Source: Selenomonas timonae
Lineage (GTDB): Bacteria > Bacillota > Negativicutes > Selenomonadales > Selenomonadaceae
DNA: 64,000 bases
Direction: 5' to 3'
Assembly (NCBI RefSeq): GCF_014250475.1
Contig: NZ_CP060204.1
Location: forward strand, 1,315,001 to 1,379,000
A program made the position numbers and the translations under genes. Numbering within the stretch: position 1 is the first letter of the stretch; each line of letters begins with the position of its first letter. Positions 30,947 through 48,241 of the stretch are shown here, in pieces. The notes beneath the pieces are model-generated. The model did no database searches. It saw only the letters and a list, made by a program, of their open reading frames with translations, and was not told the origin of the DNA.

Positions 30947-30974
30947 TTGACAAGCACTTCTTCCAGTGTTATCT
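30947..30974 (+). promoter_or_regulatory. Promoter of the riboswitch-controlled cluster
   Basis: TTGACA (30947-30952), a 16-base spacer and TTATCT (30969-30974), about 35 bases before the riboswitch aptamer. Confidence 0.65.
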
Positions 30975-31009
30975 TTAGCAAAGTGTTTTGAGAAAACTTT
31001 ATAGGAATT

Positions 31010-31323
31010 GGATCAGGTATCGAGAGATTTAATAGAAAATCCGGTAAAGGAGTATCTCCATAAGCCGGAGCGGTCCCGCCACTGTATCAGTGAGTAAGCC
31101 TGCATGGAAATGCACTGTCATTTCCGAGAACGTCACTGGGGGAATTCCCTTGGGAAGGCGCAGGTCTGCGATGAACTGGAGCCAGGAGAACTGCCTGATT
31201 GACAATCGCCGTTTGACCTGCGAGTGATGGGGATGGGGATTTGCGTGCTGTTACGCCGCTTTGAGCCCCTTTGATTGAGAGCCTATGAGCCCTTTTCTGC
31301 TGTTGCAGGAAGGGGCTTTTCGT
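31010..31323 (+). promoter_or_regulatory. Cobalamin riboswitch with terminator expression platform
   Basis: Class-defining elements occur in order: GCGGTCCCGCCACTGT (31070-31085), GGGAAGGCGCAGG (about 31152-31164) and the B12 box AGCCAGGAGAACTGCC (31180-31195). Downstream, AGCCCTTTTCTGC (31288-31300) pairs with GCAGGAAGGGGCT (31305-31317), followed by TTTT, which makes an intrinsic terminator. CGCAGGTC (31159-31166) is fully complementary to GACCTGCG (31215-31222), and an upstream GAGCCCCT (31263-31270) can compete for the 3' arm of the terminator; both are candidate switching helices. High adenosyl- or other cobalamin is expected to stop transcription before the TonB-dependent receptor gene. 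The region from 30894 to 31400 holds no gene. Confidence 0.93.
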
Positions 31324-31400
31324 TTTCCTCTATACCTAAAAGTTTTCAAAATATGATTATGGTGCATGGAGAGCACTTCACAAGAAAGGTGACAAAGGAT

Positions 31401-33344
31401 ATGACAAGAGAGAAGAAGTGGACACTGGCGGTGCTTGCGGCATTTGCGGGAGTAAGTTTTGTTGGAACGGCATATGCCGCAGAAAGTGCAGATGCCCCAT
31501 CCGAGGAGACACACGCGCTTACCGATACGGTGGTTACGGCACAGCGCCGTGAGAAGCGCGATCTCGACACGCCGGCAACGACAACGATCATCACGGCGAA
31601 GGAAATCGAGAAGGCCGGCTACCGCAACGTATTCGAAGCCATCGACCAGCAGATCGGATCAACGAGCACATCCTACGGCGAGGCGGGGCAGGACTTCGGG
31701 CTTGCTGCGGGGCGTCTCACATTACGCGGCTATGACCGCGGAACCCTCGTCATGGTGAACGGCGTTCCAATGAATCTCAAGAACTATCCGAGCACGGAAA
31801 ACATTCCGGCAAATATGGTCGAGCGCATTGAGATTGTTAAGGGCGCGGCGTCAACGCTTTACGGTGCTGAGGCGATGGGCGGTGTCGTCAATATCATTAT
31901 GAAGCAGCCAAAGCCGGAAGAATCAGAGTTCCAACTCAGCCAAACCGTCGGAAATTATTTCAAGAAAAGTGAGGCAACCTATACAGGTGACCGTATCATC
32001 GTGGATGTGAGTCGCGAATGGTCGAAGGATCTCCCGCACTCCAACGGGTTTGGCATTGATAAGATTTCCTGGGTTGACTGGTGGGTCGGCAAGGGAAAAA
32101 AGAGCCGTGTTGGCGTGATTGCGCAGCTGACAGATGAACTCTCCCTCAACTACAATTATATGGAGGGAGATATTACACGCGGCGGGGTTCAATACAAGAA
32201 ATCAGGGAATAGTCTTGTTCCGACGGGGACAAAGTACAACTACCGCTACAATGACCTCCGCCATACGGCAAGCCTTGTCTATCAGGGCAAGGATAATGGA
32301 ATTCATGCTGTTCTCGGCTACAACTATCGCAAGGTTGACGGATATGACTATATTGCGAACAGCAAGGGGAAAAGCAATGCAGTGATGGACGGGCAAATCC
32401 TTGATGTACAGAAAAACTGGCAGCTCGGTAAAGACTCGGTGGTGCTGGGATATTCCTACAAACGCGAGGCATATGATGCTACCACGCCGGATACTAAGAG
32501 GTTTCGTGATTCGGCAGTGCGTACGAGCAACTCGCTCTATACGTCCTATTCCAAGCAATTCACGCCGCAGTTTAACCTGACGCTCGGTCTGCGCGGAGAA
32601 TTTATCAACGACCCCGAGGAGGATCAGCGCGTCTTTATGCCGCAGTTCCAGACGAACTATCAGTTTGACCGCAATACAGCGTGGTATATCAATATCGGCA
32701 AGGCATTCCAGATGCCGACGGTAGATGACAGTTTCCGTTATAAGAATTTCAATCCGACGGGCTTAAAACCTGAGAGTGGCTGGACCTATGAGACAGGCGT
32801 CAAGATTCGGCGTGGAAACGATACGTGGAAAGCCGCAGTCTATCATATGGATATGAAGAATAAGATCGGATGGCGGTATGATGCAGGAACAGAGCAGCAT
32901 TATGCAGTCAATACAGGACAGTTTCGCAATACGGGAATTGAGCTTGAGTATGCAAAGCGGTTTAATGATACATGGAGTCTGACACTGGGCGGAAGTGTGT
33001 CCAATCCGGAGATACAGAATCCGCAGGGTACGAACAATGCATGGGTGCAGGATGCAGGCCGTCTGCAGGGTCTTGTACGTCTCGACTATCAGATGGCAAA
33101 ATGGCAGGGGAATCTGAACCTCAAATATCTTGGCGATCGTGAGTACATTGCGCAAAAACTCGGCGCTGCGCAGGATGTGCCCGATAAGATTCAGCTCAAC
33201 ATGAATGTCATCTACACGGCGGGCAAGGATGACACAGTGTCGCTCGGCATCTACAATCTGCTCAATCGTGAAAACTACTCCAACCGCTATGGCAATCTCG
33301 ATCTTTCGAGGAACTTCCGCCTGACCTATACGCATGCGTTCTAA
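31401..33344 (+). CDS. TonB-dependent outer-membrane receptor 1, BtuB-like
   Basis: This 647-residue protein has a signal peptide (residues 1 to about 25, ending GTAYAAES) and a TonB-box-like DTVVTAQRR. The plug domain has TIITAKEIEKAGYRNV, LTLRGYDRGTLVMVNGVPM and RIEIVKGAASTLYGAEAMGGVVNI, and a 22-strand-type barrel ends in an aromatic residue (LTYTHAF). It would carry a large chelate across the outer membrane. The cobalamin riboswitch just upstream points to a corrinoid or related tetrapyrrole. ATG 31401 follows AAGGAT; the frame opens earlier but those codons lie in the terminator. Its stop overlaps the start of the next gene. Confidence 0.93.
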   Translation: MTREKKWTLAVLAAFAGVSFVGTAYAAESADAPSEETHALTDTVVTAQRREKRDLDTPATTTIITAKEIEKAGYRNVFEAIDQQIGSTSTSYGEAGQDFGLAAGRLTLRGYDRGTLVMVNGVPMNLKNYPSTENIPANMVERIEIVKGAASTLYGAEAMGGVVNIIMKQPKPEESEFQLSQTVGNYFKKSEATYTGDRIIVDVSREWSKDLPHSNGFGIDKISWVDWWVGKGKKSRVGVIAQLTDELSLNYNYMEGDITRGGVQYKKSGNSLVPTGTKYNYRYNDLRHTASLVYQGKDNGIHAVLGYNYRKVDGYDYIANSKGKSNAVMDGQILDVQKNWQLGKDSVVLGYSYKREAYDATTPDTKRFRDSAVRTSNSLYTSYSKQFTPQFNLTLGLRGEFINDPEEDQRVFMPQFQTNYQFDRNTAWYINIGKAFQMPTVDDSFRYKNFNPTGLKPESGWTYETGVKIRRGNDTWKAAVYHMDMKNKIGWRYDAGTEQHYAVNTGQFRNTGIELEYAKRFNDTWSLTLGGSVSNPEIQNPQGTNNAWVQDAGRLQGLVRLDYQMAKWQGNLNLKYLGDREYIAQKLGAAQDVPDKIQLNMNVIYTAGKDDTVSLGIYNLLNRENYSNRYGNLDLSRNFRLTYTHAF

Positions 33345-34302
33345 GAAATTACAGCTCTGCACGCTTCTCTTCCTCCTCATCGCAGTCGCTTTTGTCGGTG
33401 GCTGTGGAGGAGAGCAGGAGAAGGCGGCAGAGCATTCTGTGTTCTATCGCGGAACAGACGGCATGGGCGTGGAGGTCGTTTTGCCGGAGAAGCCTCAACG
33501 TGTTGTCTCGCTTGGGCTTGCGACAGATGAGATCCTCCTCGCCATTGCTCCACCCGAACAGATTGCGGCGCTCACGGCCTACGCGGATGATCCCGGGCTC
33601 TCCTCGATGACGGAGGCGGCAAAGGCGGTTCCCGTGAAGCTCAAAGATCGGAGTCCGGAGCGCGTCCTTGCACTTCATCCCGATCTCGTCTTTACCACGG
33701 ACGGTGTGCCGAAGGAGCTCGTGGAGAGTCTACGCGATCTTGGGTTGACGGTCTATGCCTCGCGCACGCCGAAGCGTGTCGAGGGGATCTTTACACGCAT
33801 TGAGGAGATCGGAAGGCTCGTCGGACAGGAGGAGAATGCTGCCGCACTCATCGCCGAGAAGCGTGCACGCCTCGCAGATGTGGAGCGTCGTGTTGGGGAC
33901 ATCCCCGAGGAGGAGCACCCCATTGTCGTCGCGTTTGCGTTCAGCGGCGTGTTCGGGCAGAAGGACGGGCTCTTTGACGATATGTGCCGCCATGCCTCGC
34001 TGCGCAACGGTGCCGCAATGGTCGGTCTGACAGCAGACACGCCCGTTTCGATGGAGCAGATTGTTGCGCTCGACCCTGACGTTTTTTTACTGCCGACATG
34101 GAGTGCAGAGGGGGAAAAGACGGAGGAGTTCCGTGCAAAGCTGCGCAGCGATCCGCTCTTCATGCATGTGAAGGCTGTGCGGGAGAACCACCTCTATACC
34201 GTGCCCGATACCTACCGCTATAGTGCGGGGCAGAATGCGATTGAGTGCGTCTATGAGCTGTCGCGCGCGGTGTACCCCGAGCGCTTTGCAGACGTGAAGT
34301 AG
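33334..34302 (+). CDS. Substrate-binding lipoprotein 1 (BtuF/FepB-like)
   Basis: This 322-residue periplasmic-binding protein has a lipobox VGGC (Cys24) and the class III binding-protein pattern: KPQRVVSLGLATDEILLAI, ERVLALHPDLVFTTDG, LRDLGLTVYASRT, a long connecting helix and a C-terminal lobe ending in YSAGQNAIECVYELS. Class III proteins bind corrinoids, haem or ferric chelates. It overlaps the receptor gene by 11 bases, so the two are coupled. It is clearly less similar to the other two binding proteins of the cluster than those are to each other. It would hand cargo to the BtuCD-like transporter at 47.4-49.3 kb. Confidence 0.9.
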   Translation: MRSKKLQLCTLLFLLIAVAFVGGCGGEQEKAAEHSVFYRGTDGMGVEVVLPEKPQRVVSLGLATDEILLAIAPPEQIAALTAYADDPGLSSMTEAAKAVPVKLKDRSPERVLALHPDLVFTTDGVPKELVESLRDLGLTVYASRTPKRVEGIFTRIEEIGRLVGQEENAAALIAEKRARLADVERRVGDIPEEEHPIVVAFAFSGVFGQKDGLFDDMCRHASLRNGAAMVGLTADTPVSMEQIVALDPDVFLLPTWSAEGEKTEEFRAKLRSDPLFMHVKAVRENHLYTVPDTYRYSAGQNAIECVYELSRAVYPERFADVK

Positions 34303-34306
34303 GGCG

Positions 34307-35338
34307 ATGAAGATGAATCCGCTGCGCATGATGGTACTGAGCCTCACGGGGGCATGCAATCTCGCATGTCGCTATTGCTACGCATCGGAGCAGGACGCGC
34401 GCACAATGTCATGGGACACGGCACGACGTGCCGTTGATCTTGCAGCGGAGGGCGGCGGTCCTTTCATCCTCCAGTTCTCGGGCGGTGAGCCGCTGCTCGC
34501 ACTGCCGCTCCTCGTGCAGATTGCGGACTATATTCGCGGGAATCGCATACGGGCGCGCATGGATATTCAGACGAACGGGACGCTCATCTCCGATGAGGCT
34601 GCGGATGTTCTCTGCGATGCGGGAATTGGTGTCGGTGTCAGCCTCGACGGCAGACCCGATGTGCACGATGCGCTCCGACGTTTTCCAGACGGGCGCGGGA
34701 CATCCTCTGCTGTGATTACGGGGATACAGCGCCTCACGGCGCGCGGGAAGGAGATTGGACTGACCACAGTCGTTACAGCTGAGAATGTGGCGGCGCTCCC
34801 CGGTGTCATTGAGATGGCATACTATCTCGGCAATGTGCGCATAGTTGGCTTTGACCTTCTGCGCGGACAGGGGCGCGGTGTCAGTGTGAGACCTGCGCGG
34901 GAGGAAGATGTTGCCCTTGCGATGGAGCGTGTCTTTGCACTGTGCAGGAAGCTCGAGCGGCTTACCGGTCGACACATTGTCATCGCACAGGCAGAGCAGG
35001 CATCATGCCTTGCCCAGCGCACGGACGGCGGATTCTCCCACTGTCATGCAATGAGCGGCGCGGGCGTTCATGTCGATGCGCTTGGGCGCATCTATGCGTG
35101 CTCCTCCTTTGTCGGCGATGAACGCTTTTTGCTCGGCGATGTCGCGCATGGCATTGATGCGCGTCGGCAGGAAGAACTGGCGCATGAAATGCAGCGGACA
35201 ATGGCGTTTTGCTGCACCTGTACGGATTTCCTCCGCTGCGGCGGCGCGTGCTATGCGCGCATGACGGGAGAGCATGCCATCTGCACGGCGGAGTGCGCGC
35301 TTAAACGCGCGGCGATCAAGGAAGCCACATCTAATTAA
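34307..35338 (+). CDS. Radical SAM/SPASM-type protein
   Basis: This 343-residue protein has the radical SAM motif CxxxCxxC at Cys17, Cys21 and Cys24 ([12 protein letters not shown]), the GGEP-type SAM-binding segment [10 protein letters not shown] and a QTNGTLI strand. The C-terminal third has a SPASM-like cysteine array (GRIYACSSF, then [18 protein letters not shown], then CTAEC), so one or two auxiliary iron-sulfur clusters are expected. Relatives modify peptides, sulfatases or tetrapyrrole side chains (e.g. NirJ, AhbD). The neighbours argue for a tetrapyrrole substrate, but this is inference and no precursor-peptide gene is visible. It starts four bases after the binding-protein gene; ATG 34313 is an alternative start. 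Confidence 0.88.
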
Positions 35339-35355
35339 CAACAAGGACTACACGA

Positions 35356-36384
35356 ATGAAAACGAAAGCAATATACCCGTTTACGGCGATTGTCGGACAG
35401 GAGGAGATGAAGACTGCGCTCCTCCTCAGTATCATCATGCCCACGCTTGGGGGCGTGCTGATTAAGGGGGAGAAGGGCACGGCGAAATCCACCGCCGTGC
35501 GTGCCGCTGCGGCGCTCCTGCCCTATCTTCACGCAGTGCGAGGCTGTGCCTGTCACTGCGATCCGTCCGTCCCCGAGCTCTACTGCGATGCCTGTTGCCG
35601 GCGCGCGGCGGAGGGATCGATCACCGCAGAGGAGATGCCGATGCGCGTGGTGGAACTTCCCGTCAGTGCGACCGAGGATCGCGTGGTCGGGACGCTCGAC
35701 ATGGAGGCGGCGATTCAGCACGGGCGCAAGGAGTTCGAGCCGGGCATTCTGGCGGCGGCGAACCGTAACATCCTCTATGTGGATGAGATCAATCTGCTCG
35801 AGGATCACATTGTGGACATTCTCCTCGACTCTGCAGCAATGGGCGTGAATACCGTCGAGCGCGAGGGGATTTCCTATGTGCATCCCGCGCGCTTCGTGCT
35901 CGTCGGTACGATGAATCCAGAGGAGGGGGATATTCGTCCGCAGCTGCTTGACCGCTTTGCGCTCTCGGTCACGGTTGCGGGGGAGGCTGCCCCTGAGACC
36001 CGCGTCGAGGTCATCCGTCGGCGAATCGCCTACGAGCGCGATCCCGATGCCTTTACCGCCGCTTACACAGGGGCGCAGGAGAAGCTGCGCGCGCAGATTA
36101 TCGAAGCGCGTGACCGTATCGCCTCTGTGGAGGTGCCGGATGCCGCGCTTGATCTGGCGGCGCAGATCTCGCTTGCGCTTGGCGTCGACGGGCATCGTGC
36201 CGACATCACGCTCATCAAGGCGGGGATTGCACACGCCGCGCTCGTGGGGCGCACGACGGTCACGGCCGAGGACTTGCAGCGCGTGAGTCGCCTCGTTCTC
36301 GCGCATCGCCTGCGCCGTCGCCCCTTCGAGGAGGGGGCGGCCGATTGGAGCGCCGTGGATGAAATTCTTGGAGCGGCACTGTGA
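35356..36384 (+). CDS. ChlI/BchI-like AAA+ subunit of metal chelatase
   Basis: This 342-residue protein belongs to the Mg-chelatase I-subunit family of AAA+ ATPases. Walker A is GEKGTAKST (residues 38-46), Walker B is [13 protein letters not shown], and a family-typical insertion [18 protein letters not shown] (about residues 61-80) is cysteine-rich. Sensor regions [20 protein letters not shown] and the C-terminal helical domain are present. With D and H subunits it would power metal insertion into a tetrapyrrole. The upstream ribosome site is weak (AAGGAC). Its TGA overlaps the GTG of the D-like gene, so a fixed stoichiometry is likely. Confidence 0.93.
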
Positions 36385-38249
36385 ATACGCCGCATTTCCC
36401 GCTGACTGCTATTGTCGGGCAGGAGTCTGTAAAGCGTGCGCTCATGGCGGCACTCGTCAATCCGCGCGCGGGCGGTCTCCTGATCTCGGGCACGCGCGGC
36501 ACGGCAAAGTCCGTACTCGTTCGTGCGGCGACTCCCTTTACGCAGACGGGGCGCATTGTGGAGCTCCCGCTCGGTGCGTCCGAGGATATGGTCTTCGGGA
36601 CGATTGATGTGGAGGCGGCTCTGCAGCACGGCACGCGCCGTCTGCGTCGTGGGATTCTGCATCGTGCCCGCAATACCGTGCTCTACATGGACGAGGTCAA
36701 TCTCCTGCGCGAGGATCTGCTTGCCGCCGTACTCCGCTGTGCGGCGGACGGACTGCTTCGCCTCGAGCGCGACGGGCTTTCGTATACCGAGGCCATTTCC
36801 TATACGCCGATCGGCACGATGGATCCCGCAGAGGGGGCACTTCGTCTTGCGCTCTTGGATTCCTTCGGCATGTTTGCGGCGATGGACGAGGAGCAGGATG
36901 CAGGCCTGCGGCGCGAGATCGTGGCGCGCGTTCTTGCCTACGAGCGCGACCCGCTGGCATTCTGTTCCGCCTATGCCGCGCAGGAGGCGGAACTTTTGGA
37001 GCAGATTCGCAATGCGCGCAATCGTCTGCCTGCAGTTGAGGCGCCGTCTGCGATCCTACATTTTGCAGCGGCATGTGTCCTGCGGGCGCGCTGTGCCGGA
37101 AATCATGCGGAGATTTATTTGATTGAGGCGGCGCGCGCCCTTGCGGCGCTTGCAGGACGGGACTATGTATTGCCCGCAGACGTGGAGGAGGCGGCGGCGT
37201 TTGTGCTCGTGCACCGCATGAGCCGCCCGCGTGAGGAGGAGCAGTCACACGTACCGCAGGAAAATCGTGAGGGCGATGATCTGCCCGATGTCTCCGCGCC
37301 CTCCTCGGCGGAGGCCGGGAGCGGAGCGGGGGCGTCGGAGACGCAGCAGGAGGGAGAGGACGCGGGTGCGTCCTCCGAGGAGATGCCGAGCGCCGATGAT
37401 GAGCGTGTCGCTGCGCCGCTTGAAAATATCATGGCGAGCCTCTCACTCCTCCATATGAAGATGCGCGTGCAGGGCGGCAAGAGCGGCAGACGGGATATTG
37501 TGCAGCTGCGCACGGCGAGTGGACGGTGTCTGCGCACGGAGCTGCCGCATGGCGATGCGCATCCTGACCTCGCTCTCGCGGCAACCCTGCGCGCAGCTGC
37601 GCCGCATCAGTGCCGTCGAAGGGAAGCACAGGCGGTTGTGATCCGCACGGAGGATGTGCGCGTCTGGGTGCGTGCGCAGCGCTCGGCGGCAAACATCCTC
37701 TTCCTTGTCGATGCCAGCGGCTCGATGGGGGCACGCGAGCGCATGCGCACGGTCAAGGGCGCGATCCTCGCCCTCCTGCAGGAGGCGTATCAAAAGCGCG
37801 ACCGCGTGGGGCTCATCGCCTTTCGGCGTGAGCGTGCGGAGACATTGCTGCCGATGACGCGCAGCGTGGAGCTTGCGGAGAAGCTGCTGCGCGACCTGCC
37901 GACGGGCGGGCGCACGCCGCTCGCCGAGGGGCTTGCCCATGCATGGAAGACCGTGCGCGAACTCGAGCATAGAGGTGCAGAGAAGACTGTGCTCATCCTG
38001 ATTACGGATGGGCGTACAAATCCCGTGCGCAATGGGGGTGATGCCGTGCAGCGCGCGCTGCGTGCGGCGGAGGAGCTCGCGGGGACGGATGCGCTCACGC
38101 TTGTACTCGACACGGAGCGCGCCATGCCGCGCGTCGGCATTGCACCCGAGATCGCGCGGCGCATGAGGGCGCGCTATTACACCTTGGAGCAGCTGACGGC
38201 AGAGGGCGTGCTCGAGATTGTTCGCACATCGCGCAGAATGCAGGAGTAA
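36381..38249 (+). CDS. ChlD/BchD-like AAA+ and VWA subunit of metal chelatase
   Basis: This 622-residue protein has an N-terminal AAA+ domain, an acidic Ser/Glu-rich linker (about residues 275-345) and a C-terminal von Willebrand A domain with the metal-ion-dependent adhesion motif DASGS at residues 444-448 ([15 protein letters not shown]). This is the layout of the chelatase D subunit. Unlike many BchD proteins, its P-loop looks intact (GTRGTAKS, residues 37-44) and Walker B reads [10 protein letters not shown]. The start is GTG 36381, overlapping the I-subunit stop. It ends 22 bases before the CobN-like gene. Confidence 0.93.
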
Positions 38250-38271: not shown

Positions 38272-41200
38272 ATGAAGATTGCAGTCTATACGAATATCCT
38301 GCGCGTTCGCGTGCTCGCACGCCGTTGCGCCGCACAGCTGAAAGATCCTGCGGTATCCGTGTGTCCAGCAGACGGGGTGGCTGACTGGGAGCAGGTGCGC
38401 GCGGAGGCGGATCTGCATCTCTTCCTCTGGATGGGGACGGGGCTGGACAATGCCTTTTTGAAAAAGGCTTCGCACTTCCTTCAGCAGCGCCGCATTCCGC
38501 ATCTGATCGTCGTGGACAATGCAGAGCATGACAAGGTGAGCTGCGGCTTTTCCGAGGAGCAGATTCAGACGGCGTGGTCATACTTTCGTTATGACGGCGA
38601 GGAGAATATGCGGAATCTCTTCCTCTGGCTCGGCGCTGAGTTCGGACGTCTCCCTGTGCATGCGGAGCCGCCAGCTGCGCTCGCGTGGAACGGCGTCTAT
38701 CATCCGGACTGGGTAGGGAATCCCGAGGATGCGGCGGGCTATCTCGCCGCGCACTACGATGCGGGGCGCCCGACCGTCGGCGTGATCTTCTACCGCTCGG
38801 AGTGGATTACGGGGGATTTCACCTATCATGCGGCACTCGTCCGCGCCATCGAGGCGGCGGGGATGAATGCGATCGCCGTCTTCTCGAACTCGTATCGGGA
38901 CGAGCGCGTGGAGTCTCCGACGCTGATGGAGGCGATCGAGAAATATTTCTGCCCACGCGGGCAGTGCATTGTCGACGTGATCGTCAGCACGATGAAGTTC
39001 TCCATCAAGGCAGGTGGTACGCGCATCGAGGATCTCTGCGAACTCGGTGTCCCCATACTCGAGGCGTATACGGTGCTCGCGCCGAAGGAGGAGTGGGAGC
39101 GCTCTCCCGCAGGGCTCGACCCGATGGAGGTCTCGATGAGCGTCGCAATGCCCGAGTTCGACGGCGTGATTCACGCAGTCCCGCTTGCGGCGAAGGTGCG
39201 CGACGAGAGCGGAGAGGTCTGTTATGCCTCGCTTGAGGAGCGCATGGCACGGATTGCGGCAAAGGCGCGGAAATGGGCGGCGCTGCGCCGAAAATCGAAT
39301 GCGGAGAAGAAAATTGCCGTCGTCTTTCATAACTATCCGCCGACGAATGCGAACATCGGCAGCGCGGCGGGGCTCGACTCGCCCGAGAGCGTGCTCCGCC
39401 TGCTGACGGCGATGCGGGCGGCGGGCTATGTGATCGACGAGATTCCCGAGAGCAGCAAGACTTTTATGAAGCTGCTGACGGATCACGCGACGAACGACCG
39501 CCACTTTATGAGTGCACAGCAGGCAAGAGATGCCGACGGACATCTGACGGCGGAGCAGTATCGCGCATTTTTCAAAGAGCTGCCCGACAGGGTGCGCGCA
39601 CAGCTCGAAAAGGACTGGGGGGATGCGCCCGGCGATGTATTCAACTACGACGGAACGCTCCTCATCCCCGGCACGCTGAACGGCAATCTCTTCATCACGG
39701 TGCAGCCGCCGCGCGGCTTCGGCGAAGACCCCGGCAAGCTCCTCCACTCGCCTGATGCTGCGCCCACGCATCACTATATCGGGTACTATCACTGGCTGCG
39801 CGATATCTGGCGGGCGGACGCCGTCATCCACGTCGGGACGCATGGCTCTCTCGAGTGGCTGCCGGGCAAGGGGACGGGGCTCTCGAATGCCTGCTATCCC
39901 GATGTGTCGCTCGGCGATCTGCCCGACATCTATCCCTATTGGATCACGATTGTTGGGGAGGGGCTTCAGGCAAAGCGGCGTGGGGCAGCGTGTCTCATCA
40001 GCCACCTCTCGCCGCTGATGGAGCTGGCGGGCGGCTTTGAGGAACTGGGGGAGCTCGAGCAGGCGCTCGATGAATACGTCCACTTCCGCGCGTCCCAGCC
40101 CGACAATCTCGAGGCGGCAGAGGCACTTGTGCGCGAGAAGGCTGCCGCATGTCATTTCGAGGGGGAAATCGACGAAGGGGAGGATTTCTCCGATTACGCT
40201 GCTGCGCTTCACAACTATGTGACAGACATCAAGAACATGCAGATCCGCACGGGACTGCACATCCTCGGACGTGCGCCCGAGGGCGAGCGCCTCATCGACT
40301 TCGTGTGCGCCCTTGTTCGCATGGAACACGGCGGGGAGGCTTCGCTCGTACGCCTTATCGCCGCGCAGGCGGGCTATGACTATGAGGAGCTCTTGACACA
40401 CAGCGAGCGCATGACGGCGGACGGCATGACCTACGGCAGGAAGCTCGATGCGATCGAGTCGGAGATGCGGGCAATCATTGCCTTTCTTGCGGAGCGTGAT
40501 TATACGACGGAGGCTGCGGAGGCGGCGATGGCGCTGCCCGTTATCGCTGCTGCTCCGGCGGAGAGCCGTGCGGCGTTTTCGCATGCGCTGCGTGAGATTA
40601 CAGAGAACATCGTTCCACGTCTGCAGAAAACGGAGCAGGAGATCACGGGAACGCTGCGGGCGCTCACGGGCAGATACATCGAGCCGAGCGCTGCGGGGGC
40701 GCCGACGACAAACGGCACCGATGTACTTCCGACGGGGCGGAATTTCTACGGGATTGACCCGCGCTGCATGCCGACACCTGCCGCATGGGAGTACGGACGG
40801 CAGCTGGGCGACGCCCTCATCGAGCAGTATATCAGCGACGAGGGGCGTTACCCCGAGGCGGTCGGCATCGTCTTCTGGGCGGGCTCGAATATGCGCAGTC
40901 ACGGGCAGTGCATTGCCGAGCTCTTCTACCTCATGGGCGTGCGCCCCGTCTGGCGGCGTCCCTCGCAGCGCGTCGCGGGGCTCGAGATCATCCCGCTCGC
41001 AGAGCTGAAACGCCCGCGTATCGACGTGACGGCACGTATCAGCGGGCTGTTCCGCGATGCTGTTCCGAATGCCGTGCATTGGGTCGATGAGGCGGTGCGC
41101 ATGGTGCGCGATCTCGACGAGAGCGATGAGGAGAACTATGTGCGCAAGCACGTTCTTGCAGATGCCACATGGCTCGAGGAGCAGGGCGAGGCACGGGAGA

Positions 41201-41955
41201 GTGCGTGGGAGCGTGCCTCCGTGCGCATCTTTGGCGATCCGCCGGGTGCATACGGTGCGGGCATCGGCGATCTCCTCGAGTCAAAGGCATGGGAGACGCT
41301 GGATGATCTGGCGGCGGTCTATACGCGCTTTTCCGGCACGGCATACGGCGGCGACGGCCTCGCACGCGGCTACGATCCCGAGGTTTTTCAGCGGCGGATG
41401 GCGGGGCTCGATGTCACGGTGAAGAACGAGGACACGCGCGAGACGCATATGTTCAGCTCGGACGACTACAACGCGTACCACGGCGGCATGATTGCAACCG
41501 TGCGAGCGCTGACGGGCAAGGCGCCGCGCTCCTACACGGGCGACTCGAGTGATCGTCAGCGCATTGTGCTGCGCAGCGTGGACGAGGAGGCGGCGCGCCT
41601 CTTTCGTGGAGAGGCAATGAATCCGAAGTTCATCGAGGGGATGAAGTCGCACGGCTACAAGGGTGCCTCTGACCTCGCGAACTACCTCGCACACAGCTAT
41701 CAATGGGACGCGACAAGCGCCGTGATGAAGGACTGGATGTACGAGGGCTATGCGCGCAAATACGTGCTCGACGCGGGGATGCAGGAGTGGATGCAGGATG
41801 TCAATCCGTGGGCGCTTCACCGCATGGCGGAGACTCTGCTCGAGGCGCAGCAGCGCGGGTTCTGGAATGCCTCCGAGGAAACGCTCGCGGAGCTGCGCAG
41901 CCTCTATCTCTCCATCGAAGGCGATCTCGAAGAACGGGCGGAGGGCGCACAATGA
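38272..41955 (+). CDS. CobN/BchH-like large subunit of metal chelatase
   Basis: This 1,227-residue protein is the substrate- and metal-binding subunit family of class I chelatases. Typical segments are FHNYPPTNANIGSAAGLDSP, ESVLRLLTAM, VFNYDGTLLIPGTLNGN, the signature HVGTHGSLEWLPGKG (from residue 520), YPYWITIVGEGLQAKRRG, and MRSHGQCIAELFYLMGVRP and the C-terminal MYEGYARKYVLDAGMQEWM. It is closest in style to CobN (hydrogenobyrinate diamide cobaltochelatase), but the metal and ring cannot be told from sequence: Co, Mg or Ni are possible. ATG 38272 follows AAGGAGC. Its TGA overlaps the ATG of the next gene. Confidence 0.92.
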   Translation: MKIAVYTNILRVRVLARRCAAQLKDPAVSVCPADGVADWEQVRAEADLHLFLWMGTGLDNAFLKKASHFLQQRRIPHLIVVDNAEHDKVSCGFSEEQIQTAWSYFRYDGEENMRNLFLWLGAEFGRLPVHAEPPAALAWNGVYHPDWVGNPEDAAGYLAAHYDAGRPTVGVIFYRSEWITGDFTYHAALVRAIEAAGMNAIAVFSNSYRDERVESPTLMEAIEKYFCPRGQCIVDVIVSTMKFSIKAGGTRIEDLCELGVPILEAYTVLAPKEEWERSPAGLDPMEVSMSVAMPEFDGVIHAVPLAAKVRDESGEVCYASLEERMARIAAKARKWAALRRKSNAEKKIAVVFHNYPPTNANIGSAAGLDSPESVLRLLTAMRAAGYVIDEIPESSKTFMKLLTDHATNDRHFMSAQQARDADGHLTAEQYRAFFKELPDRVRAQLEKDWGDAPGDVFNYDGTLLIPGTLNGNLFITVQPPRGFGEDPGKLLHSPDAAPTHHYIGYYHWLRDIWRADAVIHVGTHGSLEWLPGKGTGLSNACYPDVSLGDLPDIYPYWITIVGEGLQAKRRGAACLISHLSPLMELAGGFEELGELEQALDEYVHFRASQPDNLEAAEALVREKAAACHFEGEIDEGEDFSDYAAALHNYVTDIKNMQIRTGLHILGRAPEGERLIDFVCALVRMEHGGEASLVRLIAAQAGYDYEELLTHSERMTADGMTYGRKLDAIESEMRAIIAFLAERDYTTEAAEAAMALPVIAAAPAESRAAFSHALREITENIVPRLQKTEQEITGTLRALTGRYIEPSAAGAPTTNGTDVLPTGRNFYGIDPRCMPTPAAWEYGRQLGDALIEQYISDEGRYPEAVGIVFWAGSNMRSHGQCIAELFYLMGVRPVWRRPSQRVAGLEIIPLAELKRPRIDVTARISGLFRDAVPNAVHWVDEAVRMVRDLDESDEENYVRKHVLADATWLEEQGEARESAWERASVRIFGDPPGAYGAGIGDLLESKAWETLDDLAAVYTRFSGTAYGGDGLARGYDPEVFQRRMAGLDVTVKNEDTRETHMFSSDDYNAYHGGMIATVRALTGKAPRSYTGDSSDRQRIVLRSVDEEAARLFRGEAMNPKFIEGMKSHGYKGASDLANYLAHSYQWDATSAVMKDWMYEGYARKYVLDAGMQEWMQDVNPWALHRMAETLLEAQQRGFWNASEETLAELRSLYLSIEGDLEERAEGAQ

Positions 41956-42938
41956 AGATGAACACGATATGCACCGCTTTTCTTGCGGCGCTCCTTTCCA
42001 TCCTGCTTCTCAGCGGCTGCATTGACCTCTCCCGGAATCAGGCGGGCGGCTACGAGGTCACGGATGTGGAGGGCACGGTCGTCAAAATCCCGCACAAGCC
42101 GCAGCGCATCCTGACGGTCAGTGCAGGCACGGACGAGCTGATGCTCGGCCTCGTCGAGCCGGAGCGCATGGCGGCGATCAATGAGTCGCTCGCCGATACG
42201 GAGCATACGAATATCCCGTGGGTGCGCGAAAGGATTCCGACGGTCATCGTTCGCAGTCCGTCCGTCGAGCAGATCGCGGCGCTGCGTCCCGATCTCGTCG
42301 TCGTGACGCCGTGGATGCCGCGCGAGAACATTGACGCGATCCGCGAGCTGAATGTGCCCGTTCTCGTCTGTAAGTCCGCCGCGACGATGGAGGACATTCA
42401 CGGCAACATCCGCCTCTTTGCGGCGGCGGTCGGAGAGCCCGAGCGCGGGGAGAAGCTCATCGGCATGATGGAGGAAAAGCTCGCGGAGATTCGGGCAAAG
42501 GTGGCGGATGTGCCCGAGGAGAAGAAGCACAAGAGCATTGCGCTCATCTCAATCATGGTGAACTACGGCGGCGCGGGCTGCACATTCGACGAGCTCTGCC
42601 GCTACACGGATTCGATCAATGCCAAGGCTGCGGCGGGCAACCGCATGGGGCAGGAGATGACGAAGGAGCAGCTCGTCGCGGCGAATCCGGACTACCTCTT
42701 TTTCCCGAGCTATGAGGACGGGGCGACGAACGAGGAGAACTACGGACGGCAGTATCTCGAGGACCCCTCGCTCGCGCAGATGACTGCCGTGCGGGAGCGG
42801 CAGATCGGGCATCCGTGGGCGCGCTACGTCTACAATCTCTCGCAGAACATTGTGTATGGTATTCAGGAGACGGCGTGGATTCTCTACGGCGACGCGTTTC
42901 GGCAGTCGCGGCACGAGTTCCTCACCGCCGTGGAATAA
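41952..42938 (+). CDS. Substrate-binding lipoprotein 2
   Basis: This 328-residue class III binding protein has a lipobox LLSGC (Cys23). It contains YEVTDVEGTVVKIP, KPQRILTVSAGTDELMLGLVEPERMAAI, EQIAALRPDLVVV and a C-terminal lobe with VNYGGAGCTFDELCRYTD. It is a clear paralogue of binding protein 3 (46.4-47.4 kb): many blocks match almost residue for residue. The two copies flank the nifHDK-like genes. The start ATG overlaps the chelatase stop (ATGA), so it is coupled to metal-chelatase synthesis. The likely cargo is a tetrapyrrole. Confidence 0.9.
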   Translation: MKMNTICTAFLAALLSILLLSGCIDLSRNQAGGYEVTDVEGTVVKIPHKPQRILTVSAGTDELMLGLVEPERMAAINESLADTEHTNIPWVRERIPTVIVRSPSVEQIAALRPDLVVVTPWMPRENIDAIRELNVPVLVCKSAATMEDIHGNIRLFAAAVGEPERGEKLIGMMEEKLAEIRAKVADVPEEKKHKSIALISIMVNYGGAGCTFDELCRYTDSINAKAAAGNRMGQEMTKEQLVAANPDYLFFPSYEDGATNEENYGRQYLEDPSLAQMTAVRERQIGHPWARYVYNLSQNIVYGIQETAWILYGDAFRQSRHEFLTAVE

Positions 42939-42947
42939 GGTGGTACA

Positions 42948-43760
42948 ATGAAGAAAATTGCGTTCTACGGCAAGGGCGGCATCGGCAAGTCCACCACGGC
43001 GGCGAATGTGTCCGCCGCATTCTCGCGCATGGGGCGGCGAGTCTGTCAGATCGGCTGCGATCCGAAGAACGACTCGACGCGCCTCCTGCTCGGGCGCATT
43101 GCGCCCTCCACGATCCTTGACCTTGAGCGCGAGAAAAAGGGGGCGGGGCTTACCTTGGACGACCTCGTGCACGAGGGATGGAACGGCGTGCGCTGTATCG
43201 AGGCGGGCGGCCCCGACCCCGGCGTCGGCTGCGCGGGGCGCGGCATCATCGTCTCGCTCGAGCGGCTGAAGGCACTGCACGCCTTTGACGATCTCGACGT
43301 CGTGCTCTACGACGTGCTCGGCGACGTGGTCTGCGGCGGTTTTGCCGTGCCCATACGCGAGGGCTATGCCGCAGAGATCTACATTGTCTCATCGGGTGAG
43401 CTCATGTCGCTCTATGCAGCGAACAATATCGCAAAGGGCGTGCAGCGCTTTGCCGCGCGCGGTGCGGTGAAGCTTGGCGGGATCATCGGCAACGGGCGGG
43501 ACGTACTGCGCGAGCAGGAACTCCTCGCCGCCTTTGCTGATCGCATTGGCACGCAGCTCATCGCCTACATTCCGCGTTCGCGCAGCGTGCACGAGGCGGA
43601 GATTCATCGGCAGACGCTCATCGCCTACGCGCCGGAGTCGGAGCAGGCGCAGCACTACGTTGCGCTCGCACAGGCAATCGATACGAACGAGATGCTGACC
43701 GTGCCGACGCCGATGGAGTTCGAGGAGCTCGAGGAGCTGGTGGAGCGCTATGGGAATTGA
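42948..43760 (+). CDS. NifH-like ATP-dependent reductase iron protein
   Basis: This 270-residue member of the NifH/BchL/CfbC family passes electrons to a NifDK-like partner with ATP hydrolysis. The P-loop is GKGGIGKST (residues 8-16). Both [4Fe-4S] ligands are present: Cys95 in GVGCAGRG and Cys129 in [12 protein letters not shown], with Arg98 at the nitrogenase Arg100 position. The segment after Cys129 ([14 protein letters not shown], then [11 protein letters not shown]) reads like NifH and CfbC rather than the BchL/BchX type. It begins nine bases after binding protein 2 with GGTGG upstream. No nifB, nifE or nifN is visible, so nitrogen fixation is not indicated. Confidence 0.93.
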
Positions 43761-45201
43761 GGTTAAGCGCGTCGGCATACGCCGCACAAACTGCAGCTGC
43801 AGCATGCCGGGCGTTTGGCGTGCGCTGTCCTTTGTGCGCGGCGCCGTCGTCATCTTTCACAGTCCGCGTCCGTGCGCGCACATCGCGCACGGCATGGACG
43901 TGAGCAGCTTTCACCGCCTGACTGCGGCGGGGACATCCGTGCGGCTTTCGCCCGTGCCGCTCCTGACGAGCGGGCTTGGGGAGAGTGAGGCGATCTTCGG
44001 CGGGGAGGAGCGGCTGCGCGAATGCATCCGCTTTGCCGTGGACAAATACCATCCGCAGGCCGTATTTATTGCAAACTCCTGCGTCAGCGGCGTGATCGGC
44101 GATGACACAAAGGCGATTGCCGAGGAGATGGAGGCGGAGCTCGGTCTGCCCATCACGGCGGTGTCGGCGCATGGATTTCTCGACGGCGAGTACTATGCGG
44201 GCTATCTCGATGCCGCGAGGGCGCTTGTCGACCGTTTCATGCAGCCCGCCGAGCGCAGGGAGGGCACGGTTGTCCTGCTTGGTGACTGCGGCGGCATGCA
44301 TGGAGCATATGTGCGCGAGCTGCGGCGTCTGCTCTCCCTCCTCTCTCTGCGTGTTACGGCACAGTTCCCGTCCTACCTCAGCCTCGATGAGATGCAGGCG
44401 GTGCCGGAGGCGGGGCTCGTCATCCTGCTTGGGCGGCGTATGGACGACGAGAAACAGGCGCAGCTGATCGCACTCGCCGCGCACATGAAGGAGCGCTTCG
44501 GCACGCCGTATCTCGCCGATATCTATGCGGTCGGGGCGGAGGAGACGAAGCTCTGGCTGCGGCGTGTCGGTCTGCTCTGTCACCGTGAGGAAGAAGCGGA
44601 ACATGCCATCGCAGCGGAGGAGGAAGCCTTTGCCGCCGCCGTGGAAAAGGTACGCACGGAGCTTGCGGGGCGCAGATGTGCGCTTGCCATCGGACGCGAC
44701 CTCTCATGGTTCCAGCCGGAGATTGTCCTGCGTCTATTGAAGAAGGTTGGTATCATTTTGTCCGGCATCGTCCTGCTCGACTGCTTTCTACCTGCGCGAC
44801 GTGAAGTGATGGAGGAGGAACTGCACCGCCGGACAGATGTCCCCATCCATCACGAGGGAGATGCTGCGGCAGAGGAATTACTGCACAGTGTGGACTTTGT
44901 CCTCACGACGCATGAGCTCGTCGATGCAAAGCTGCGCCAGCTCTTCCTCGCGCTCCTGCCATCGGTCGGCTGGTCGATGGAGCGGCGGCTGCTGGACGAT
45001 ATGCGGCAGATACTGCACCGACACGAGAGCAGGGGAGGGCTGATCTATGGGGGAGCGGGAAAAATCCTTCGACGATGTCTGCATGTATACCGACACCTGT
45101 GCGCTCGCGGGTGCGTCGGCGTTCTTCGCGGGGATCCGAGATGCCGTCATTGTGGTCAACGGTCCCCTCTGGTGCTATTACTTTGCCATGCGGCACATTG
45201 A
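43750..45201 (+). CDS. NifD-like catalytic subunit, nitrogenase-like reductase
   Basis: This protein of 483 residues as the frame reads belongs to the oxidoreductase/nitrogenase component 1 family. Cysteines sit where P-cluster-type ligands are expected: Cys15 or Cys17 ([13 protein letters not shown]), Cys42 ([12 protein letters not shown]) and Cys111 ([11 protein letters not shown]). I see no obvious equivalent of the FeMo-cofactor Cys/His ligands, as in DPOR and CfbD. The start overlaps nifH-like by 11 bases. The last ~52 residues are read out of frame across the start of the nifK-like gene and are Arg/Cys-rich, unlike a natural C-terminus; the functional domain probably ends near base 45050. 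A late frameshift in the genome or assembly is possible. Confidence 0.85.
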
Positions 45202-46324
45202 GCACAGTCAGAGTACGATCTCGCATCGCATGGTCTGCACGCAGCTCGACAACGACGCGATTGTATTCGGTGCGGAGGAGTATCTGCAGGAAGCGCTTGC
45301 ACCGTATGTGGAGCAGCCGCCCGCCCTGCTTGCGATTGTGAGCAGCTGTGCGGCGGGGCTGATTGGCGACGACATCGCGGCGATTGCGCGCGGGGCGGGG
45401 CTCGCCTGTCCCGTTGTCGCGCTCGACAGCAGCGGACTTGCAGGGAGCTTTGCCGACGGCTGGGATAAGGCGGCGCGTGCGGCGCTTCAGACGGTTCCTT
45501 TGGAGCGTACTGCGGCACAGTCTCATGCAGTCAATCTGATCGGGATGACGGATGCCTATTACAACGGCGCGAATGACGCGCGTGAGCTTGTGCGGCTCCT
45601 TCAAATCGCAGGCTATACGGTGAATGCTGTTCTCGGCAACGATATGAGTGCGGAAGACTTTCCGCATCTGACACAGGCGGCACTGAACATCGTTGTGCAC
45701 GCAGAACTGGGGCGCGGCAGCGCGCAGCTGCTCGAAGAGATGTACGGTATGCCGTGGATTGCGCCGTTCCCGCCCTATGGGCGTGCGGGCACGCGGCACT
45801 GGATGCAGGAGATTGCAGATGTGTTGCCGTCACCGCACGCCGAGGCGGCGGAGACAGAGATTGACCGCGTCACGCGCGAGGATTTCCTGCGCATCAATGA
45901 GTGCAAGATGCTCTGGGGAGAGCTCCGCTATGACACGGCTGTCGTACGTGCGCCCGACTCCATGGCATGGGGGCTGGCGCAGGCATTGCGTACGGAGTGG
46001 GCAGACGTCTGCCATCTTGCCGTTGCGGCAGAAGCGGAGCGCGCAGAGGATGTCGCCCGTATCGCGGATGAAATTCTGGGCGAGACGGATGCCCTGCGCA
46101 TACAGCAGCTGCTCGGCGAGATGGAGAACGGGCTCCTACTCGGCAGCAGCAACGAGTCCGCGCACATCCATCCGCAGCACGCTCAGTATCTGCCCGTTGC
46201 CTATCCCGCGCAGGACTTCCTGCGTCTGACAGACAGTCCCTTCATGGGACTGCGCGGCGCACGTCATATCGAGGAGCAGCTGTGGAACGGAAATATTCTG
46301 CGTCGAAAAATCTTGCTTTCATAG
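45047..46324 (+). CDS. NifK-like partner subunit, nitrogenase-like reductase
   Basis: This 425-residue second component-1 family member has Cys12 and Cys18 ([12 protein letters not shown]), Cys43 (NGPLWCYYF) and Cys101 (VSSCAAGLIGDD) in the spacing of nitrogenase P-cluster ligands. Other family marks are TQLDNDAIVFGAEEYL, VVALDSSGLAGSF and GRAGTRHWMQEIADVL. With the NifD-like protein it should form a heterotetramer reduced by the NifH-like protein. ATG 45047 is preceded by GGGAGGGCTGATCT, a usable ribosome site inside the nifD-like frame. A 62-base gap with a promoter-like -10 follows. Confidence 0.9.
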   Translation: MGEREKSFDDVCMYTDTCALAGASAFFAGIRDAVIVVNGPLWCYYFAMRHIEHSQSTISHRMVCTQLDNDAIVFGAEEYLQEALAPYVEQPPALLAIVSSCAAGLIGDDIAAIARGAGLACPVVALDSSGLAGSFADGWDKAARAALQTVPLERTAAQSHAVNLIGMTDAYYNGANDARELVRLLQIAGYTVNAVLGNDMSAEDFPHLTQAALNIVVHAELGRGSAQLLEEMYGMPWIAPFPPYGRAGTRHWMQEIADVLPSPHAEAAETEIDRVTREDFLRINECKMLWGELRYDTAVVRAPDSMAWGLAQALRTEWADVCHLAVAAEAERAEDVARIADEILGETDALRIQQLLGEMENGLLLGSSNESAHIHPQHAQYLPVAYPAQDFLRLTDSPFMGLRGARHIEEQLWNGNILRRKILLS

Positions 46325-46386: not shown

Positions 46387-47370
46387 GTGATTCAGAAAAG
46401 AATTGCCCTGCTTTTCCTCTGCGTGCTCTGCGCCGTCCTCACCGCCTGCGGCGTACCGAATGCCGCAGAGGAAAAAACTGCGGCGTACACGGTCACGGAC
46501 ATCGAGGGCACCGAAGTCGCCTTCCCTGCGCCGCCGAAGCGTATCATCACGCTCTCGATGAGCACGGACGAAACGATGCTCGGGCTCGTCGAGCCGGAGC
46601 GCATGGCGGCGGTCAATACGCTGCTTGATGACCCCGTGAGCTCGAATGTGACGGGGCTCGTCAAGGCAATCCCGCAGCGCATCGGAAACCCAACCGTGGA
46701 GGAGATCATAGCGCTGCAGCCCGACCTCGTCGTCGTTCCGGACTGGGGCGACCTCACGATGGTGCCGTCTCTGCGCGAGGCGGGGCTGAAGGTTGTCGTC
46801 TGCAAGGGCGCCCGGAATCTCACGGAGATTCGCGAGACAGTCACGCTCCTCGCAGCGGCGGCAGGGGAACCGGAGCGCGGGCAGAAGCTGCTCTCCATGA
46901 TGGATGCAAAGCTCGCGGAGATTCAGGACAAGGTTGCACAGATTCCGCAGACGGAGCGCAAGACCGTCGTCCTCATCTCGCTCATGAGCGGCTACGGTGG
47001 GCTTGGCAGCAGTTTCGACGAGGCATGCCGCTATGCAGGTGTCATCAATGGACGTGCGGAGCTCGGTATCCGTGATTTTCAGGTGATGACGAAGGAGCAG
47101 CTCGTGCAGATCGATCCCGACATTCTCTTTTTGCCGACGTACAACGACCACGGCAACTACGATGTGCAAAAATTCCGCAGGGAGTATCTGGACGATCCGT
47201 CCCTGCAGACGATGAAGGCAATCCGCACGAAGGCGTTCGCCGAGCCGTTCGAGGGATATATCTACAACTGCTCACAGGATTTTGCCTTCGGTGTTCAAGA
47301 GATTGCCTACCGTGTCTACGGCGATGCATTTAAGCAGTCCGAGCACGAGCATCTTTCGGCAGTCGAGTGA
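46387..47370 (+). CDS. Substrate-binding lipoprotein 3
   Basis: This 327-residue class III binding protein has lipobox VLTAC (Cys21). It reads YTVTDIEGTEVAFP, PKRIITLSMSTDETMLGLVEPERMAAV, EEIIALQPDLVVVPDW and SGYGGLGSSFDEACRYAGVING, so it is a close paralogue of binding protein 2, including the C-terminal YGDAFKQSEHEHLSAVE matching YGDAFRQSRHEFLTAVE. It lies directly upstream of the ATPase and permease and is the most likely dedicated partner of that transporter. The start is GTG 46387, with GGAAAGGAAG upstream. Confidence 0.9.
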   Translation: MIQKRIALLFLCVLCAVLTACGVPNAAEEKTAAYTVTDIEGTEVAFPAPPKRIITLSMSTDETMLGLVEPERMAAVNTLLDDPVSSNVTGLVKAIPQRIGNPTVEEIIALQPDLVVVPDWGDLTMVPSLREAGLKVVVCKGARNLTEIRETVTLLAAAAGEPERGQKLLSMMDAKLAEIQDKVAQIPQTERKTVVLISLMSGYGGLGSSFDEACRYAGVINGRAELGIRDFQVMTKEQLVQIDPDILFLPTYNDHGNYDVQKFRREYLDDPSLQTMKAIRTKAFAEPFEGYIYNCSQDFAFGVQEIAYRVYGDAFKQSEHEHLSAVE

Positions 47371-47389: not shown

Positions 47390-48241
47390 TTGAGTGAAAT
47401 GATCCGCGCGGAAGCACTCTATGCGGGCTACAACAGGAACGTCATCCTCGCAGATGTATCGTTCACCGTGCGCGCAGGTGAGATGGTCGGACTGATCGGG
47501 CCGAACGGCGCGGGCAAGAGCACCCTGCTCAAGACATTGCGCGGCATCCTCCCAAAGCTCTCCGGTTCTGCCGCACTCATGGGCGAGGATATCGAAGTAC
47601 TCGAAGCAAAGGCATTTGCACGCCGTGCGGCATATTTGCAGCAGCATGTGGAGATGACGTTTGACTATACGGCGCGCGACATCGTGCTCGCGGGGCGCTA
47701 TCCATATCTCTCGTGGTGGCGGCAGGAAAAGGCAGACGATCTTGCGATTGCCGAGGCATGCATGGCATATACAGGCGTCCTGGAGCTTGCGGAAAAGCCT
47801 CTGCACGCCATGTCGGGGGGACAGCGTCAGCGCGTTCTGCTCGCAAAGGTGCTTGCCCAGCAGACGCCAGTGCTCTTTCTCGATGAGCCGGCGACGGGGT
47901 TGGACATCATCTATCAGGAGGAGATCTTTTGGTTCTGCCGCGAGCTCTGTGCAGCGGGCAAGACTATCCTGCTCGTTGCGCATGAGCTGAGTCTTGCGGC
48001 ACGCTTCTGCTCACGGCTTCTCCTCATCGGACGCGGCACGCTTCTTGCGGACGGCATTCCGCAGGAGGTGCTGACGGATGCGCTCCTGACCCGCGCGTAT
48101 GGTGCACCCGTGCGCGTGGTGGAGAATCCCGTGACGCATCACGCAGAAGTCTATACGGAGGCAGAGGAGGGCGGGGCGGAGAAAGCTCAGCTGCTCTCCG
48201 TGATTCTTGGATCTGCAGATGAGAGGGGGGCGTTGCGGTGA
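47390..48241 (+). CDS. ABC transporter ATPase (BtuD/FecE-like)
   Basis: This 283-residue ATPase has Walker A GPNGAGKST (about residues 37-45), signature MSGGQRQRVLLAKVL, Walker B VLFLDEPATGLDI and the H-loop VAHELS. It resembles ATPases of vitamin B12, haem and siderophore importers. The last ~40 residues extend beyond the usual domain (VTHHAEVYTEAEEGG...). TTG 47390 has the best spacing from GGGGAGG (47377-47383); ATG 47399 is an alternative. Its TGA overlaps the GTG of the permease gene. Confidence 0.93.
   Translation: MSEMIRAEALYAGYNRNVILADVSFTVRAGEMVGLIGPNGAGKSTLLKTLRGILPKLSGSAALMGEDIEVLEAKAFARRAAYLQQHVEMTFDYTARDIVLAGRYPYLSWWRQEKADDLAIAEACMAYTGVLELAEKPLHAMSGGQRQRVLLAKVLAQQTPVLFLDEPATGLDIIYQEEIFWFCRELCAAGKTILLVAHELSLAARFCSRLLLIGRGTLLADGIPQEVLTDALLTRAYGAPVRVVENPVTHHAEVYTEAEEGGAEKAQLLSVILGSADERGALR

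Follow-up and report, generated by a model that had tools for sequence, protein, structure and literature searches.

Organization of the locus

The window, i.e. the whole stretch of 64,000 nucleotides of Selenomonas timonae DNA that was analyzed, contains an operon in which the third gene encodes a radical SAM/SPASM enzyme (Table 1). No intergenic gap larger than 82 bp was found from the TonB1 gene through the gene for TonB-dependent receptor 3. The radical SAM/SPASM gene is separated from the preceding SBP1 by 4 bp and from the following chlI by 17 bp, confirming the position between the first binding protein and chlI given in a sequence-only reading of this DNA. The Rfam search of the window resulted in one RNA only, the cobalamin riboswitch, which is located upstream of the radical SAM/SPASM gene in the same operon, 22 bp after the end of the promoter-like site. 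A fold z-score of -3.65 was obtained for positions 31190-31330, which cover the terminator-like hairpin. Newly recognized here is a predicted cobalamin riboswitch with its own putative promoter and terminator (30947-31318) at the head of a tightly packed operon.

Table 1. Predicted features of the operon and its leader region (positions in the window)
Feature	Position	Strand	Evidence
Sigma-70-like promoter, TTGACA-17-TATCTT, TG before -10	30947-30975	+	consensus scan only, 10/12 matches
Cobalamin riboswitch aptamer	30998-31212	+	RF00174, 80.8 bits, E 2.6e-18, full model 1-189
Terminator-like hairpin, 14 pairs, T-rich tail; probable riboswitch expression platform	31287-31318	+	scan
TonB-dependent receptor (TonB1), first operon gene	31401-33344	+	Pfam Plug and beta-barrel
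Periplasmic binding lipoprotein SBP1	33334-34302	+	PF01497; 11-bp overlap with TonB1
Radical SAM/SPASM enzyme, 343 aa, two predicted auxiliary clusters	34307-35338	+	ORF, Pfam/NCBIfam profiles, alignment, AlphaFold
ChlI-like AAA+ chelatase subunit	35356-36384	+	TIGR02442/TIGR02030 matches
ChlD-like AAA+/VWA chelatase subunit	36381-38249	+	TIGR02442 550 bits, VWA
CobN-like large chelatase subunit	38272-41955	+	TIGR02257 937.6 bits (cut-off 822); best solved relative CobN 7c6o
Periplasmic binding protein SBP2	41952-42938	+	PF01497
NifH/CfbC-like reductase	42948-43760	+	PF00142; TIGR01287 390.8 bits, just under cut-off
NifD/NifE-like subunit 1	43750-45201	+	PF00148
NifD/NifE-like subunit 2	45047-46324	+	PF00148
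Periplasmic binding protein SBP3	46387-47370	+	PF01497
ABC ATPase, BtuD/heme-type	47399-48241	+	profile matches
FecCD/BtuC permease	48238-49272	+	best NCBIfam match BtuC 269.8 bits, below cut-off
TonB	49273-50004	+	PF03544
TonB-dependent receptor 2	50023-52035	+	profile match
Xylose-isomerase-like TIM barrel, superfamily of cobamide-remodelling CbiR	52079-53047	+	PF01261; recurs beside the radical SAM family
TonB-dependent receptor 3, best model TonB-B12	53130-55022	+	TIGR01779 203.7 bits, below cut-off

The whole 2.35-Mb genome contains six cobalamin riboswitches, another of which is found upstream of the gene for CbiK. The radical SAM/SPASM gene very likely belongs to the B12 regulon, and it is probably switched on together with the chelatase and the B12-type importers when vitamin B12 is scarce. 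The two NifD-like open reading frames, which are in different frames, share 155 bp (45047-45201). A similar overlap was seen in two other loci (L118 and L037); either the genes overlap over a long, conserved stretch or a start has been wrongly set.

Cysteine motifs and predicted structure

The product of the 34307-35338 reading frame matched the Pfam Radical_SAM model (PF04055) with 68.6 bits. It is not a chance reading frame, because it is conserved in 13 of the 14 genomes of the genus and in 68 of the 380 genomes of the class. The SAM cluster motif is C17-x3-C21-x2-C24, and these three cysteines were invariant in an alignment of 35 family sequences. The canonical seven SPASM ligands are C246, C265, C302, C305, C311, C315 and C330, with the spacing C-x13-G-x4-C ... 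C-x2-C-x5-C-x3-C-x14-C. The full ten-cysteine motif was present in 34 of the 35 aligned members, the lone exception being a fragment that ends before the last cysteine. The seven-cysteine motif was found in all 37 family sequences of the tree described below, in three of three anaerobic sulfatase maturases (anSME) and in the ScfB; every NirJ/AhbC/AhbD-type sequence tested lacked it. The CxxxCxxC motif and SPASM-like cysteine array noticed in the sequence-only reading were therefore borne out by Pfam, the ten-cysteine motif and the family alignment. By its cysteine pattern, the protein is assigned as a canonical SPASM protein with one SAM cluster and two predicted auxiliary [4Fe-4S] clusters.

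The AlphaFold model of the enzyme had a mean pLDDT of 95.1 and a pTM of 0.92. The closest solved structures were CteB (TM 0.82) and anSME (TM 0.80), together with ChlB, SkfB and SuiB; this ChlB is a RiPP maturase, unrelated to the chlorophyll gene of the same name. The CteB/ScfB SCIFF maturase (PDB 5WHY/5WGG) and anSME (4K37) resemble the enzyme in fold (TM about 0.8), in the seven-cysteine SPASM domain and in the two auxiliary clusters. However, the enzyme is only 20-24% identical to them and no sulfatase or SCIFF gene adjoins it. It is also about 100 residues shorter than CteB and has no RRE-like N-terminal domain. We know of no solved NirJ or AhbD structure in the library searched, so the fold search cannot count against a relationship to these enzymes.

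Family placement

All NCBIfam family matches of the enzyme were far under their cut-offs. The highest score was obtained with the model for PapB-family ranthipeptide maturases (NF047865), 138 bits against a cut-off of 340. This model aligned from end to end, over radical SAM core and SPASM domain, and matched all 35 family members. It was followed by the nif11 maturase (119), QhpD (114) and ScfB (105) models, and the anaerobic sulfatase maturase model TIGR03942 gave 83.7 bits (cut-off 349). Scores for AhbC, NirJ1, AhbD and NirJ were 84, 82, 75 and 74 bits, respectively (73.5-84.4 against cut-offs of 500-650), and covered the core only, the alignment ending at about residue 200.

A midpoint-rooted tree was made of 88 SPASM and NirJ/Ahb-type proteins. 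The family of the enzyme formed one side of a branch with 97/70 support and was monophyletic in 98% of the bootstrap trees. The NirJ/Ahb-type set formed a separate clade (100/100), and the anSME-, ScfB- and QhpD-like sequences were found elsewhere in the tree. The family and the NirJ/Ahb-type clade were on the same side of the root, with weak support. The genome has its own NirJ/AhbC/AhbD-type pair at 785.7-788.0 kb and an ScfB-like gene at 278 kb.

Membership of the NirJ/AhbD group, to which kinship had been guessed from the sequence alone, was rejected because of the subthreshold core-only scores, the separate clade and the lack of the seven-cysteine motif in the NirJ/Ahb-type set. With NirJ, AhbC and AhbD the enzyme shares a radical SAM core and a tetrapyrrole setting, but it has another C-terminal cysteine pattern and a corrinoid rather than a heme context. 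Membership of a sulfatase-maturase or known peptide-maturase family was likewise rejected, as all scores were far below the cut-offs, the clade is its own and no conserved small reading frame was found beside the enzyme in 33 loci. Compared to PapB, the nearest family by profile, the enzyme has no precursor peptide beside it and is found in a cobalamin-riboswitch setting. Profile scores and phylogeny place the enzyme as the founder of a family of its own, apart from NirJ/AhbC/AhbD and anSME/ScfB/QhpD.

Distribution and gene neighbourhood

Carriers of the gene were recognized by a clear gap in E-value, from 1e-62 to 1e-31, before other SPASM proteins; the one match below the gap was treated as a non-orthologue. 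In the class, a CobN homologue was found in 66 of the 68 carriers compared to 45 of the 312 non-carriers (Fisher p 5e-41, with no correction for kinship, so that the value overstates the evidence from these related genomes). CobN and the radical SAM/SPASM gene were within 25 kb of each other in 59 carriers and within 100 bp in 28. NifD-like genes were less tied to the enzyme, being present in 57 of the 68 carriers, and nine carriers had CobN but no NifD match. Outside the class, the gene was found in Desulfovirgula, a Clostridiaceae genome, a Treponema MAG, an actinomycete MAG and proteobacterial (deltaproteobacterial)/desulfobacterial MAGs, in most cases beside CobN and FecCD/ABC genes. In several phyla, the family thus accompanies chelatases of the CobN type and importers resembling BtuFCD.

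A cobalamin riboswitch was present in 21 of the 32 radical SAM loci examined, the window included, and one locus (L048) has the order riboswitch, radical SAM gene, CbiK homologue. Recurrent neighbours of the family were CbiZ, CbiK and CbiC (all three confirmed by Pfam), a nitrilase-like hydrolase and a TIM barrel; no metallophore or lower-ligand gene family was recognized among them. The tetrapyrrole setting proposed in the sequence-only reading thus held, but cobalamin riboswitches, CobN, CbiZ, CbiK and BtuFCD-like importers point to corrinoids and cobalt and not to heme.

The nitrilase-family (PF00795) hydrolase was found near the radical SAM gene in seven loci (L127 11144-11917 and six others), and may be an amidase with corrin side chains as its target. 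The TIM barrel type of the window recurs in 11 compared loci and is a candidate cobamide-remodelling enzyme of the CbiR type. A further NifD-like pair was observed at L117 8543-11108 (own genome, about 1561-1563.6 kb). It shares 57-59% identity with the pair in the window, and no NifH, CobN or radical SAM gene adjoins it.

Search for a precursor peptide

A total of 1513 small reading frames outside known genes and within 6 kb of the enzyme were compared across 33 loci. No conserved precursor-peptide reading frame was found beside the radical SAM/SPASM gene in these loci, the scan being confined to linked peptides that do not overlap genes. The only recurrent groups were riboswitch sequence, a proline-rich TonB linker and permease antisense. 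A conserved precursor peptide next to the gene was therefore rejected, in agreement with the earlier remark that none is visible nearby. An RRE-like N-terminal extension was not found either, the core starting at about residue 8, although some maturases have no RRE or a separate one.

Loss of the enzyme and its relation to CobN

In genome G004 the radical SAM gene (L147 3820-4320) is a pseudogene, interrupted by a stop in the GGEP motif and shortened by an internal deletion. The rest of the cluster is kept at 50-93% identity, making this a natural knock-out. In genome G305 (L161 10056-10480), most of the radical SAM gene and of ChlI/ChlD was observed to be deleted beside a CobN match without its N-terminal part. 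In genome G101 (L136 10558-14842), the radical SAM gene, ExbB/ExbD, the ABC importer, the TIM barrel and a riboswitch are present, and no CobN was detected anywhere in this genome. The TIM barrel of G101 is followed by a gene that is presumably related to methylmalonyl-CoA mutase.

The CobN tree required at least six changes in presence or absence of the radical SAM gene among the sampled loci. No cysteine or other residue cleanly separating CobN of carriers from that of non-carriers was found in the comparison. C542 of CobN was present in 93% of carriers and 44% of non-carriers, but it lies in a stretch that we take to be conserved across the superfamily and was therefore not counted as carrier-specific. 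CobN as an obligate substrate was rejected, as it persists in non-carriers, is missing in G101 and showed no residue that cleanly marks carriers; CobN is thus probably not an obligate substrate of the enzyme. Since CobN outlives the enzyme in some genomes, the enzyme is accessory.

Possible substrates

The main rival to a corrinoid substrate is a protein of the same regulon, since the closest relatives known are enzymes that modify peptides. The enzyme would then be a maturase of the PapB/ScfB/anSME type and would crosslink or oxidise a residue either in an unlinked peptide or in a B12-regulon protein, be it a binding protein, a TonB receptor or a subunit of the chelatase. The whole-length PapB match common to all 35 members, the CteB and anSME folds and the canonical seven-cysteine SPASM domain argue for this. 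It was nevertheless judged rather unlikely, considering the scores far below every family cut-off, the missing RRE-like extension, the flanking gaps of 4 and 17 bp with no conserved small reading frame in 33 loci, and the comparison of CobN with and without the enzyme. Heme or heme d1 side-chain chemistry by a member of the NirJ/AhbC/AhbD family is highly improbable: weak core-domain matches and a shared, weakly supported side of the tree are outweighed by the separate clades, the different cysteine pattern and the presence of such a pair elsewhere in the genome.

Small molecules are the substrates of some SPASM and SPASM-like enzymes, and the operon has several TonB receptors and binding proteins, so a different compound of this kind within the B12 regulon, such as an imported metallophore (via TonB/ABC transport) or a lower-ligand precursor, was considered. 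With no gene family for either among the recurrent neighbours, this is very unlikely. A porphyrin substrate, in an HmuS-like cluster for obtaining iron from heme or for porphyrin breakdown, would fit the receptors and importer ATPase, which also match heme-type models. In addition, the CobN-like BtuS1 and BtuS2 of Bacteroides fragilis influence the use of heme iron (PMC6460266), and HmuS de-chelates heme, most CobN-family homologues not being reliably annotatable (PMC12583661). This explanation was considered improbable and an HmuS-type heme system was rejected, because cobalamin riboswitches, CbiZ and CbiK are found at the loci and CobN of the window is nearer to CobN than to HmuS (768.6 against 387.8 bits). 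Furthermore, it has ChlI/ChlD partners and no obvious signal peptide, whereas HmuS is membrane-bound.

The gene context favors a corrinoid, and an imported corrinoid-type tetrapyrrole acted on by radical chemistry was judged about evenly balanced as the substrate. The assignment is weakened because PapB, nearest by profile, and CteB and anSME, nearest by fold, represent families with peptide or protein substrates, because the seven-cysteine array differs from that of the tetrapyrrole-acting NirJ/AhbC/AhbD-type enzymes tested, and because the gene is present without CobN in G101 while the cluster persists with a dead gene in G004. To our knowledge, no corrinoid-modifying SPASM enzyme has been described.

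Proposed role in corrinoid salvage

The genome encodes a CbiT-like methyltransferase, two corrin/porphyrin methylases, CbiG, CbiJ, CbiC, two CobB/CobQ-type amidases, CobU, CbiB and the riboswitch-linked CbiK. By annotation, it holds most of the pathway that makes corrins de novo and inserts cobalt early. With this pathway and CbiK present, CobN should not be needed for de novo synthesis. The late-insertion pathway is where CobN classically acts (PMC7689651), and CbiK inserts cobalt early, so CobN and its partners, the radical SAM/SPASM enzyme among them, probably serve salvage.

A possible, tentatively proposed role of the SPASM family is to edit the ring or side chains of corrin or another imported tetrapyrrole, in an undescribed anaerobic pathway of corrinoid salvage and re-metallation with CobN-ChlI-ChlD and the nitrogenase-like reductase. 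When corrinoids are scarce, the riboswitch would allow expression of the operon. A corrinoid-type tetrapyrrole, perhaps damaged, incomplete or wrongly metallated, would be taken up by way of the TonB receptors, the binding proteins and the ABC importer. The enzyme would cleave SAM, and the 5'-deoxyadenosyl radical would alter the macrocycle or a side chain, the reaction itself being a guess. CobN-ChlI-ChlD might then insert or exchange the metal (the order of steps is also a guess), the NifHDK-like reductase, where present, could reduce the ring, and the product would join the corrinoid pool.

Loci of CobN and CobN-like chelatases (BtuS, HmuS) are similar in having a CobN-type subunit and TonB/BtuFCD-like transport. 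PMC6460266 cites Rodionov (2003) for an earlier prediction that CobN relatives of the BtuS type serve metalloporphyrin salvage, and for the B12 regulation noted at some loci of CobN and CobN-like chelatases. Compared to the BtuS and HmuS loci, the locus in the window has ChlI/ChlD and the SPASM enzyme, and NifHDK is often found in loci of the family. A likeness to cobamide remodelling by CbiZ or by the remodelling enzyme CbiR (PMC7733943) is seen in CbiZ and the CbiR-superfamily TIM barrel that recur beside the enzyme. However, CbiZ and CbiR remove the lower-ligand part of cobamides, and no radical SAM enzyme was found in the described pathways. No paper describing a SPASM component of CobN-type loci was found in the open-access papers searched, and novelty is therefore provisional.

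An uncharacterised SPASM family is linked here to vitamin B12 by its regulation and by its gene company across phyla. This bears on why a chelatase of the CobN type is retained in anaerobes with early cobalt insertion by CbiK. Should a corrinoid prove to be the substrate, the enzyme would be the first corrinoid-acting SPASM enzyme known to us, and would represent a new salvage or repair step that is testable in gut, oral and rumen bacteria.
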